From: a virus | Direction: 5' to 3' (one strand) | IMG/VR virus record: IMGVR_UViG_3300033153_007833 | Span: 1-32,659 of that record | Length of the DNA stretch: 32,659 nt | In this document: piece after piece, positions 11,779 to 21,440 of the stretch | Layout: the number at the start of each line of letters is the position of its first letter | How positions within the stretch are numbered: position 1 is the stretch's first letter | The notes under the pieces: model-generated | What the model saw: the letters and a program-made list of their open reading frames with translations, nothing else | Databases searched by the model: none | What the model was told of the DNA's origin: nothing | Position numbers and translations under genes: made by a program

Positions 11779-12060
11779 TTAGTCCACCTTCATACTATCT
11801 TGATACTCAACTATAGACTTCCTGCTGTACGAGAATGGTCTCGAGTTGGTATAAAATATTATCTTTCTGTCAGCTCTGAGTTTTGCCAGTTTGCTTGTGC
11901 CACAATCTAGCATTTTAAGGGCTTCATCCTCTTTGATGATGTCATCGGTCGGGTTTTCCTTTTCAAGCTGTTTTTTGGCTACTTCTGCCCCTTGCTTGAA
12001 GGCATCCTTGATGATGCTTGTGAAGTCATGGTCTGTGATTTGTATTAGTATTGTGCTCAT
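11779..12060 (-). CDS. Excisionase-like HTH protein
   Basis: A 93-aa protein. The C-terminal half (DIIKEDEALKMLDCGTSKL then AKLRADRKIIFYTNSRP and FSYSRKSIVEYQDSM) has the winged-HTH layout of the Xis/AlpA (HTH_17) family: recognition helix, basic turn, short strand pair and a last helix that begins with a RKS-like motif. Excisionases bend attP and direct integrase towards excision. Location in the leftward operon near integrase resembles lambda, where xis is expressed from PL. It could instead be another small HTH regulator. Confidence 0.6.
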   Translation of the reverse strand: MSTILIQITDHDFTSIIKDAFKQGAEVAKKQLEKENPTDDIIKEDEALKMLDCGTSKLAKLRADRKIIFYTNSRPFSYSRKSIVEYQDSMKVD

Positions 12061-12273
12061 CTAATCCTCCTCTATTTCTTTATCATAAACAAGGTGCCTT
12101 ATGTCACACTCATCATATTCTTTTATTCCATTATAACAACGAACATAAACATTATAATGGATACCTCTGTTTCTGCTTGCACCCCAAGTCTTGACGATAA
12201 CGCCTATTTGATTGCCATCTACCACTACTACGTTGCTGAATTGGAAGGTTGGTGCTTCTTGTTCGTGCATCAT
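12061..12273 (-). CDS. Small protein of unknown function
   Basis: A 70-aa, beta-rich protein. FSNVVVVDGNQIGVIVKTWG followed by RNRGIHYNVYVRCYN suggests a small SH3- or KOW-like barrel, as in several phage proteins that track nucleic acids or RNA polymerase; this is pattern only. It starts at ATGATG overlapping the end of the previous gene, and its stop is directly followed by the next ATG. Confidence 0.55.
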   Translation of the reverse strand: MMHEQEAPTFQFSNVVVVDGNQIGVIVKTWGASRNRGIHYNVYVRCYNGIKEYDECDIRHLVYDKEIEED

Positions 12274-17435: not shown

Positions 17436-17465
17436 ATTATAAACTAAATGGTTTATAAAAGTCAA
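17436..17465 (-). promoter_or_regulatory. Leftward early promoter (PL-like)
   Basis: On the minus strand TTGACT (17465-17460) and TATAAT (17441-17436) are 18 bp apart. Transcription would start near 17429 and run left through a long leader into the small-gene operon at 16569. The promoter is nearly identical to the rightward one at 20753-20782 (30 of 32 bases over the shared block, by eye). Confidence 0.75.
17437..17458. promoter_or_regulatory. Operator OL: TTATAAAC-N6-GTTTATAA
   Basis: A perfect 8+6+8 palindrome filling the spacer and -10 region of PL. The same palindrome fills PR. It ends 28 bp before the repressor ATG, so it can also control the repressor's own transcription. A dimeric repressor bound here would block RNA polymerase. 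Confidence 0.75.
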
Positions 17466-17486: not shown

Positions 17487-18251
17487 ATGAATGTAGGAAA
17501 AAGATTTGTAGACGCTATGGAAAAAGTCTATGGTCATGCTCGTTTTGGTGCGGATTTAGCGAGAGAATACGAGGTGTCACCACAAGCAATAAGCCAATAC
17601 AAAAATAAAAGAAAAGCAACCGATTTGATGAGGGAAATTGCAAAAGATAAAGGGATTTCTTTATCTTGGTTGGAGTTTGGTGAAGGGAATATGCTTGTTA
17701 AAGGCAAAGATATTTCTATGATCCAAGGCGGTAATGGCAATATTCAGACTAAAGGGAGTAAAAATCGTATAAGTGGTGGCATTGTAAGCGATAGTGATAA
17801 ACTGTATGGAGAGGAAGAAGAGAGTGTTACACTTGACTACTACCCTGAAAGTTATGCCAGTGCTGGAGGTGGTGCTTACCCTTACTTACAGAAGTCTAAG
17901 CCTATGAGTTTTTCTAAAAGTTTTTTAGAGATCCATCTTGGGCTTATGAGTTACAAAAATATCTTCATTTTAAATACTACTGGTGAGAGTATGGAGCCTA
18001 CACTTAAAGATGGATCTCTTATCTTTGTCAATCCTATAGAGAATGAAGATGGCCATGTAAGGGATGGTGGTGTTTATGTCATCATGTGTGACAATACCAT
18101 CCTGGTAAAGAGGGTCAACGTGAACCCGATCACCAAGAGCTATACGCTCATTTCAGACAATCCTGCTCATGATAACATTACCATAGATATGTTTCATGAG
18201 AGTGGGTGTAAGTTTGTGGGTAGGGTAGTTGGCAGTTTTGACAGGGTGTAG
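17487..18251 (+). CDS. CI-type repressor with S24 self-cleavage domain
   Basis: A 254-aa protein behind GGAG. Residues 1-65 are a CI/bet-type HTH domain (ADLAREYEVSPQAISQYKNK, then GISLSWLEFGEGNM). A Gly/Asn-rich linker follows (about 75-100). The C-terminal S24/LexA domain has nucleophile Ser168 in TGESMEPTLKDGS and general base Lys208 in NTILVKRV. The likely autocleavage bond is Ala126-Gly127 in SYASAGGGA. Damage-induced RecA would trigger cleavage and induction. The two TTATAAAC palindromes flanking the immunity region are the probable targets. Confidence 0.9.
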   Translation: MNVGKRFVDAMEKVYGHARFGADLAREYEVSPQAISQYKNKRKATDLMREIAKDKGISLSWLEFGEGNMLVKGKDISMIQGGNGNIQTKGSKNRISGGIVSDSDKLYGEEEESVTLDYYPESYASAGGGAYPYLQKSKPMSFSKSFLEIHLGLMSYKNIFILNTTGESMEPTLKDGSLIFVNPIENEDGHVRDGGVYVIMCDNTILVKRVNVNPITKSYTLISDNPAHDNITIDMFHESGCKFVGRVVGSFDRV

Positions 18252-18309
18252 GTAGGGTTGAATTATAATAGGAATTATGTTAATATAATAGTAATAATAA
18301 GGAGTTCAT

Positions 18310-18582
18310 ATGGCAAAAGAAGAAAAAGTTGAGGGGCACCCCCGAAATATTTTAGCTGCTGATTTTTCGGAGGTAGAAAGTTCTTATGGAAACCAGTCCA
18401 TTATTCAGCGTACCAACGAGGATATTGCAGTTGTGTTTGGGCAAACTACAATGGCAGGAGATGGGAAAGTTAAAATTAAGTTCCAAAATGAGATTCACAT
18501 GTCATACAATCACTTTAAAAATTTTGTTAAAAATTGCAACAATATCCTAGAAGAAATAGAGAAGAATGAAGCAAAACAATGA
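18310..18582 (+). CDS. DUF3467-like small protein
   Basis: A 90-aa protein behind AAGGAG. The pattern ADFSEVESSYGNQSII, then EDIAVVFGQTTMAGDGKVKI and MSYNHFKNFVKNCNNILEEI resembles DUF3467: a strand with FGQ, then a segment with a membrane-free helix that ends in a kYE-like motif. Family function is unknown. It overlaps the following nuclease-like gene by 17 bp, suggesting one transcript with it and the repressor, so it may be expressed in the lysogen. Confidence 0.5.
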   Translation: MAKEEKVEGHPRNILAADFSEVESSYGNQSIIQRTNEDIAVVFGQTTMAGDGKVKIKFQNEIHMSYNHFKNFVKNCNNILEEIEKNEAKQ

Positions 18583-18949
18583 AGTTTTAGCTATAGCGAA
18601 ACATCCTCAGCATGGAACAGATATACTTGTTTATGATTCTAGCTGGACACATGCCTTAGACGGGCATTATGAGCTAGAAGATTGCGAAGGTCCAAATTAT
18701 TGTTTAGAGGAAGTTGTTGAAACACTTAATAATCCTGATGCAATTCTTGAAGGCAGAAAGCCAGAAACTGAAGAGTTGTTTGTAAGATATACAGAACAAA
18801 CAGGTGAAACTGAATTTACTGGATATTCTGTATCAACAAGAATAGAAGATGATATTACTTATATGACTACAGCATATCATGATGTAGTTAAACCCTGGAA
18901 TAAGGGCAATGTAAAGTGGACAAAAAATAAAGGGGCCGTCAATGAGTAA
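18566..18949 (+). CDS. BECR-type nuclease-like protein (possible toxin)
   Basis: A 127-aa protein. WTHALDGHYELEDCEG (His29, His34, Glu36), then VETLNNPDAILEGR, then LFVRYTEQTG and ITYMTTAYHD follow the layout of small barnase/EndoU/colicin/RelE-like (PBECR) proteins of phages and mobile elements. In those the conserved His/Glu and TAY motifs form the active site. The gene overlaps a DUF2283 gene by 8 nt, a pairing that looks like toxin and antitoxin. Catalysis is not proven; the family call is by motif only. Confidence 0.5.
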   Translation: MKQNNEVLAIAKHPQHGTDILVYDSSWTHALDGHYELEDCEGPNYCLEEVVETLNNPDAILEGRKPETEELFVRYTEQTGETEFTGYSVSTRIEDDITYMTTAYHDVVKPWNKGNVKWTKNKGAVNE

Positions 18950-20752: not shown

Positions 20753-20782
20753 TTGACATTTATAAACAATTTAGTTTATAAT
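20753..20782 (+). promoter_or_regulatory. Rightward early promoter (PR-like)
   Basis: Perfect consensus boxes TTGACA (20753-20758) and TATAAT (20777-20782) with 18 bp between. Transcription would start near 20789 and run into the CII-like gene and replication genes. Its reverse complement is nearly identical to the PL block at 17436-17467. Confidence 0.85.
20760..20781. promoter_or_regulatory. Operator OR: TTATAAAC-N6-GTTTATAA
   Basis: Perfect palindrome in the spacer and -10 of PR, with the same halves as OL (17437-17458); only one of the six central bases differs when aligned in the same sense. It is also 35 bp before the start of the HIRAN-like gene on the minus strand. Confidence 0.8.
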
Positions 20783-20789
20783 ACACTTC

Positions 20790-20827
20790 GAGCACTTTAT
20801 AACACTCCGTAACAAGAGCATTATAAC
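20790..20827 (+). repeat. Two related repeats in the PR leader
   Basis: GAGCACTTTATAAC (20790-20803) and GAGCATTATAAC (20816-20827) differ by two inserted bases. They lie just after the start of transcription and contain a half-operator-like TTATAAC. A weak extra site for repressor or Cro-like protein is possible. Confidence 0.35.
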
Positions 20828-20841
20828 GAAGCTTAGATTTA

Positions 20842-20924
20842 GTCTGCTTTGGTGGCGGATGGTTGGTTTTGGCTGAACTCCTTTACTCCCATCCCCTACC
20901 AAAGCAGACATAAGGAGTTCAACC
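20842..20924 (+). promoter_or_regulatory. Two-state leader RNA that can hide the SD of the CII-like gene
   Basis: Hairpin A: 20842-20862 pairs with 20889-20909 (21 positions, 19 Watson-Crick, one G-U, one mismatch). Its loop holds GGCTGAACTCCTT (20871-20883), which is complementary at 12 of 13 positions to AAGGAGTTCAACC (20912-20924), the SD and bases up to the ATG. The 2-nt gap between A and the SD is too short for a pseudoknot across 21 bp, so hairpin A and the SD-hiding hairpin B are exclusive. Confidence 0.65.
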
Positions 20925-21440
20925 ATGATAAAACCAACTCACATTTACAAAGCGATCTCTGAGGCCATAGATGCCTGGGGAGACCGAAACTACATTAATG
21001 CCCGGAGCCACTTGGCACAGGCACTTGGACTGCGTGGTAAAAATGCAGCTATCCAGCTTTCAAATATACTCAACTATAAAAGTTACAACCCAGTGTCACC
21101 AAAAGCTATGAAGCTCGGACAGCTTTCTGTCATTATGGATGAGCTTGACCAGGAAGGCGTGGCCCACATCTTAAACGGCATTGGTGATCCGCATGGACTT
21201 ATGGTCGTACCTAAAAAGATGGATGTTGCAGATCATGAGAACTTTCATAAGGCTGCAGATGATGCGATGCTTGAGAGTGATGATGTGTTTAAGGCTACAA
21301 AGCTTGCGCTTAGAGATGAAACACTCACGGATGATGAGCTTAAAGCAATCATCAAAGAGATAGACGAGTCAGAGAGTGCCACTGCCAAGTTAAAGGCTAT
21401 GGCTAAAGAGAGACTTAGAAAGATGGAGGAAGAGGGATGA
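20925..21440 (+). CDS. CII/Cox-like phage regulatory protein
   Basis: A 171-aa protein. Residues 5-75 match the phage CII-type regulators (PF06892-like): ISEAIDAWGDRNYINARSHL, then AQALGLRGKNAAIQLSNIL, then PKAMKLGQLSVIMDELDQEG. They have an HTH core with a long helical tail. The C-terminus is very charged (AMAKERLRKMEEEG). As first gene of the PR transcript it is placed like lambda cro/cII. Its translation may be set by the leader fold upstream. It may activate or repress genes in the lysis-lysogeny choice. Confidence 0.65.
   Translation: MIKPTHIYKAISEAIDAWGDRNYINARSHLAQALGLRGKNAAIQLSNILNYKSYNPVSPKAMKLGQLSVIMDELDQEGVAHILNGIGDPHGLMVVPKKMDVADHENFHKAADDAMLESDDVFKATKLALRDETLTDDELKAIIKEIDESESATAKLKAMAKERLRKMEEEG

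Follow-up and report, generated by a model that had tools for sequence, protein, structure and literature searches.

A hairpin in the mRNA leader of a phage CII-like gene carries at its tip a sequence complementary to the Shine-Dalgarno (SD) sequence of that same gene. Matched changes preserve this pairing across 18 related viruses and prophages of Campylobacterota, which makes it very probable that the element is real and acts on the gene as a switch or antisense brake not described before. At the level of sequence and statistics, the hairpin, the complementarity between its loop and the start region, the compensatory conservation of this pairing within a phage clade and the RNA nature of the element are established. 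As to how it might act, we lean toward a self-encoded antisense leader that would brake translation of the CII-like gene in the manner of the C4 RNA of phage P1, in preference to a switch acting purely in cis.

The stretch of DNA analyzed (the window, 32,659 nt) is a temperate-phage record from IMG/VR with integrase, terminase, portal and capsid genes. The CII-like gene is the first gene behind a PR-type promoter, so the leader belongs to the first gene of the PR transcript as the sequence-only reading had assumed. Since transcription is expected to start near 20789, the transcript contains the hairpin, referred to below as hairpin A. The features of the locus are as follows:

17487..18251, + strand: CI-like S24 repressor gene, whose product is the presumed ligand of the operators
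20753..20782, + strand: PR-type sigma-70 promoter, TTGACA-18-TATAAT, agreeing with the consensus at 12 of 12 positions
20760..20781, + strand: operator-like palindrome TTATAAACaatttaGTTTATAA, overlapping the PR-type promoter
20789..20841, + strand: predicted 5' end of the leader, with a weak local fold; start taken to lie some 7 nt past the -10 box
20842..20862, + strand: 5' arm of hairpin A; its first 11 bp (GTCTGCTTTGG) are conserved in the Sulfurovaceae-type clade
20861..20869, + strand: second antisense stretch, which pairs with 20931-20939 (codons 3-5)
20863..20888, + strand: apical region of hairpin A, which holds the antisense stretch
20871..20883, + strand: anti-SD stretch GGCTGAACTCCTT, complementary to 20912-20924
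20889..20909, + strand: 3' arm of hairpin A
20912..20939, + strand: target paired with the loop in state B, comprising the SD AAGGAG, the start codon (20925-20927) and codons 2-5
20925..21440, + strand: CII-like regulator gene, 171 aa (Pfam Phage_CP76; PHROG 101, CII-like activator)

Perfect copies of the palindrome TTATAAAC-N6-GTTTATAA are found at 20760-20781, where it overlies PR, and at 17437-17458, directly upstream of the CI-like gene, where it overlies a leftward promoter (17465-17436). With up to three mismatches allowed, the window holds four matches versus 0.44 expected, and these two are the only exact ones; both are likely operators to which CI would bind. A promoter scan of the window revealed no strong antisense promoter reaching the leader. 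No leader ORF was seen when the window leader was read, and translational attenuation was set aside for this reason. A small gene behind CI shows a weak, below-cut-off match (18566-18949) to PBECR2, a phage-associated Barnase/EndoU/ColicinE5/RelE-like nuclease domain.

Of the leader structures in the window, hairpin A is the strongest. Its 21 positions (20842-20862 with 20889-20909) comprise 19 Watson-Crick pairs, one G-U pair and one C-C mismatch, and exactly 2 nt (20910-20911) separate it from the SD. Of the 13 loop positions 20871-20883 (GGCTGAACTCCTT), 12 can pair with 20912-20924 (AAGGAGTTCAACC), which spans the SD and the bases up to the start codon. Hairpin, loop complementarity and 2-nt gap had all been proposed from the sequence alone and were recovered here, and the alternative helix proved to be even longer, at 22 bp: 10 + 3 bp end at the A of the start codon, and a further 9 bp lie beyond it (20861-20869 with 20931-20939), with UGAUA bulged. 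Folding of 20789-20960 returned a minimum free energy of -47.7 kcal/mol (z -3.9) that none of 200 shuffles equaled, and the duplex energy between the upstream region and the start region (z -6.3) was matched by 1 of 1000 shuffles. The CII-like gene ranks first among the 52 genes of the window for this duplex, for its z score and for the fold of its leader. The loop fits the start regions at 18310 and 1146 about equally well, a point against the brake favored below; since the DUF3467 gene behind CI has a start region (18298-18312, ATAAGGAGTTCA) with 12 nt in common with that of the CII-like gene, the loop could pair there as well, making it a possible second target in trans. The 5' arm (20842-20852) can also pair with codons near 20952-20964 (CAAAGCGATC), and does so more strongly in locus L077; the 3' arm thus resembles the coding region. 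A terminator-like call at 20842-20860 was rejected as self-folding of the 5' arm with a poor U tract.

The two folds are predicted to be unequal in stability. The 202-nt leader has a predicted energy of -59.8 kcal/mol with hairpin A and -53.8 kcal/mol without it, and fold A is favored over fold B by 5.3 kcal/mol in the window and by 0.4 to 15 kcal/mol across loci, the gap being at most 0.5 kcal/mol in NrS-1 and L058. In the energy model, hairpin A has a probability of 0.995 and forms once 20909 has been transcribed, ahead of the start region. Of the two-state leader proposed in the sequence-only reading, the competing pairings are retained, and the simple picture of a balanced cis switch is weakened by the dominance and early formation of fold A; the energetic preference for A makes spontaneous switching in cis unlikely. 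A thermosensor is disfavored as well, since in the energy model the formed fraction of hairpin A, which does not include the SD, stays above 96% between 4 and 75 C, and an SD-masking structure that melts in the physiological range was not found.

Relatives of the locus came mostly from profiles run against viral contigs and against genomes from the class and several families; with the single window protein as query, no relatives were found in viral contigs and one was found in genome contigs. In all, 18 CII-like loci of viruses and prophages were assembled: the window and 17 others, these from at least four Campylobacterota host families. The annotated phages SNW-1 (Sulfurimonas) and NrS-1 (Nitratiruptor) contribute two of them, and the open-access papers describing the genomes of SNW-1 and the Nitratiruptor phages make no mention of a hairpin. 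The close relative on a Sulfurovaceae contig, with a CII 62-63% identical, has the same outer stem (GTCTGCTTTG...CAAAGCAGAC) and an inner stem of other sequence that is still paired, and its loop TGAACTCCT faces the SD AGGAGTTCA. A search for the outer stem as a DNA pattern returned only chance matches besides the known L071 contig. The order hairpin, 2-8 nt, SD is common to most loci despite sequence divergence of the hairpin, the loop and the start region. In 16 of the 18 loci, 2 to 8 nt separate the end of the hairpin from the SD or from the first position of the helix; L058 and L099 carry a long insertion at this point, so that their linker exceeds 40 nt, and keep both pairings. A consensus promoter lies 14 to 21 nt 5' of the hairpin in SNW-1, NrS-1, L058, L061, L084 and L085. 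Examples of loop and start region pairs are:

L071: loop TTGAAACTCCTTT, start region AAAGGAGTTTCAA
L077: loop TGATCCTCC, start region GGAGGATCA
L061: loop CCTTTTGGG, start region CCCAAAAGG
L093: loop CCCCCACGGAT, start region ATCCGTGGGGG
NrS-1: loop AACGGGTGT, start region ACACCCGTT, target in codons 3-6

The loci that bear the element form one supported protein clade (98/99), which suggests a single origin; the one exception inside it, L068, is a long-branch CII homologue without a clear hairpin-loop element.

Each loop pairs far better with its own start region than with those of other loci. Mean energies of the ungapped loop-start helix over the 18 loci were -17.7 kcal/mol for own and -10.4 kcal/mol for swapped combinations, and 0 of 200,000 permutations was as good as the true pairing. 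Because the loci are related, permutations over all 18 overstate independence, and the test on nine non-redundant loci is the fairer figure: here the true assignment was the best of all 362,880, and only the identity reached it. The same nine loci gave a combined p of 6e-11 against shuffled apical sequence and a Fisher value of 1.2e-10 against other windows of the same locus, a control for composition. The loops of SNW-1, L086 and L059 were individually not significant, and 14 more distant CII homologues are without the element (Fisher 0.21, compared with 2.9e-12 for the 18 loci). Comparison of the whole hairpin with neighboring windows by RNAduplex was noisy (Fisher 4.7e-5, nine non-redundant loci) and was therefore replaced by ungapped helices in the apical part. 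That hairpin A merely stabilizes the 5' end of the mRNA or spaces the SD, with an incidental complementarity of loop and SD, could be argued from the Sulfurimonas-type hairpins, which lie close to the predicted 5' end; this is highly improbable given that each locus's own loop-start pairing beats the swapped, shuffled and neighboring-window controls.

Compensatory changes in relatives, whose lack the sequence-only reading had named among the findings that would speak against its proposal, are present. In the Sulfurovaceae-type clade every cell of the 11 outer pairs stays paired, with double changes in two pairs and no variation in eight, and alifold finds a double change in 8 of 22 pairs of hairpin A. 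In NrS-1 and its relatives, the helix between loop and codons shows a single double change (G-C to A-U) with all cells paired, and the near relatives L060 (CCCACAGATCG/CGATCTGTGGG) and L070 (CCCCAGATCG/CGATCTGGGG) differ by a matched change in the loop-SD helix. These per-clade counts are small and alone not significant, so that the permutation test carries the weight. Of 14 loci, 12 have a transcribed strand that folds better than the complementary one (Wilcoxon p 0.003), and those that do not are of the L070 type; the comparison is slightly biased by hairpin limits set by eye on the sense strand. Owing to the G-U pairs behind it, this difference favors RNA over DNA operators. The earlier suggestion that the interleaved inverted repeats are DNA operators, bound by CI, CII or another regulator, is accordingly very unlikely. 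The outer arms of the Sulfurovaceae type do form a conserved inverted repeat, but arm spacing and sequence vary, the stems contain bulges as well as G-U pairs, the outer-arm motif has no further exact copy within the window and the operator-like palindromes lie elsewhere, at 17437 and 20760.

The same comparisons bear on a strictly cis-acting two-state switch, in which hairpin A would be the ON state and an RNase, a helicase or a protein would open it so that the loop masks the SD. The opener could be, among other options, a phage or host protein that recognizes the conserved outer stem, and conservation of this stem within the clade means that the protein-responsive switch of the sequence-only reading may apply. 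The short gap between hairpin and SD in nearly all loci, the eight invariant outer pairs and the near equality of the folds in NrS-1 and L058 fit such a switch. Nevertheless, hairpin A is dominant and the first to form, the outer stem is completely different between clades, the window leader offers no visible ORF, and L058 and L099 retain both pairings across their long linkers, so that we consider it a credible but clearly less probable explanation. A riboswitch in the usual sense appears not to be present: neither a conserved core nor a known class was found, and apart from the clade-specific outer stems pairing alone is conserved. The loop varies freely except for its complementarity, and thus no conserved pocket is visible. 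Searches of Rfam with the window and the 17 loci gave no match, the best matches at relaxed thresholds being eukaryotic microRNA precursors far below the cut-off.

Geometry limits what a single molecule could do. With a 21-bp stem (about 57 A) and a connection of 2 nt, the loop of a molecule in state A should be unable to reach the SD of that molecule, but it would be free to pair with another transcript. The mutual exclusion of folds claimed earlier is therefore strict for the SD part; for the part pairing with codons 3-5 it does not hold, since a linker of about 20 nt could in principle allow a pseudoknot alongside hairpin A. A pseudoknot as the functional form, in which the loop of an intact hairpin A pairs with codons 3-6 and leaves the SD and start codon enclosed in the linking strand, agrees with NrS-1, L058 and L099, where 9 of 12 apical bases pair with the region of codons 3-6 with one compensatory change, and with the additional 9-bp helix that the window has beyond the start codon. 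We regard it as improbable, however, because at most loci the best complementarity is to the SD, which lies only 2 to 8 nt off the stem, too little to span a stem of 12 to 21 bp.

In the C4-like brake that we favor, hairpin A would fold first as a rigid scaffold and display a loop able to pair with the SD, with the bases flanking the start codon and with the initial codons of the next gene. Pairing of loop and start region would block 30S binding, and CII would not be made; repression of translation, giving less CII, is thus the probable outcome of pairing. The pairing would occur mostly in trans, either by one transcript with another or by a hairpin released through processing, in the way of the P1/P7 C4 RNAs, because hairpin A is the ground state and keeps its own loop off the adjacent SD; in cis it would occur only once hairpin A has been opened or cut. 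Action in trans, with any processing, is put forward more tentatively than repression itself. Neither a separate promoter nor a terminator was found for a free hairpin RNA, so a trans form would need processing or pairing between transcripts.

This preference draws both on the inability of state A to pair with its own SD and on the similar layout of P1 C4. C4 antisense RNA (P1, P7 and relatives; RF01695) is likewise a structured same-strand RNA immediately 5' of its target, made from a repressor-controlled promoter, and its segments are complementary to the start region 4 nt downstream in P1 (PMC12197685). The annotated order in P1 is C1 operator, promoter, c4 RNA, 4 nt, target sites and icd start. 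Here, too, antisense segments of a structured RNA are complementary to the start region just downstream in the same transcript, and a palindrome that CI presumably binds covers the promoter, with a second copy upstream of CI. The two differ in that the target is a CII-like gene rather than the icd/ant antirepressor operon, and in that the element is one hairpin with one or two antisense stretches, for which action in trans is a proposal. The RF01695 covariance model matched neither the window, the 17 loci nor the 15 genomes or records, whereas P1 scored 68.8 bits as positive control, so the membership test works. The element resembles C4 in its layout but falls outside the RF01695 family.

Other systems are less similar. 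With lambda OOP RNA, too, a phage cII gene is under RNA control (PMC12197685). OOP, however, is transcribed separately, from a promoter of its own, is antisense to cII and promotes the decay of cII mRNA by RNase III; unlike the element here, it involves no leader pairing with the SD. The aapA toxin mRNAs of Helicobacter pylori, part of type I toxin-antitoxin systems, come from Campylobacterota as well; access to their SD depends on anti-SD stretches and alternative hairpins, and their SD-masking hairpins are transient during transcription (PMC6733600); here, in contrast, a stable first-formed hairpin holds the anti-SD off the SD. A type I toxin-antitoxin system is not indicated in the window, where the gene encodes a 171-aa CII-like regulator and no strong antisense promoter reaches the leader. 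The IncI-type rep leaders offer a further precedent for loop pairing: a leader hairpin loop pairs with sequence beside the SD, and the resulting pseudoknot activates translation.

If correct, the proposal would place the lysogeny decision of phages of chemolithoautotrophic Campylobacterota under RNA control, and antisense RNAs located in the leader of their own target would gain, with cII, a second kind of target besides ant. To our knowledge, little regulation has been described in these phages. Because sequences vary and two competing pairings are kept, the loci amount to a naturally replicated compensatory-mutation experiment that is easy to test. From the way loops and targets appear to diversify together, it is conceivable, if doubtful, that the hairpin RNA of each phage silences CII of its own kind and not that of a relative. 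The element would then be a previously undescribed family through which RNA adds a level of control to lysogeny and heteroimmunity in phages of Campylobacterota.

Two relatives showed further features. In NrS-1 (L096, about 12040-12110), TTCAAAGGTTTTGAA or a close variant of it occurs twice directly before the CI-like gene, and these copies are probably autoregulatory operators; the strong upstream complementarity at this CI gene was traced to the duplicated palindrome and discarded as an instance of the element. In L059, a 5S rRNA gene (341-458, - strand) lies near the CII-like prophage locus, perhaps close to the integration site.
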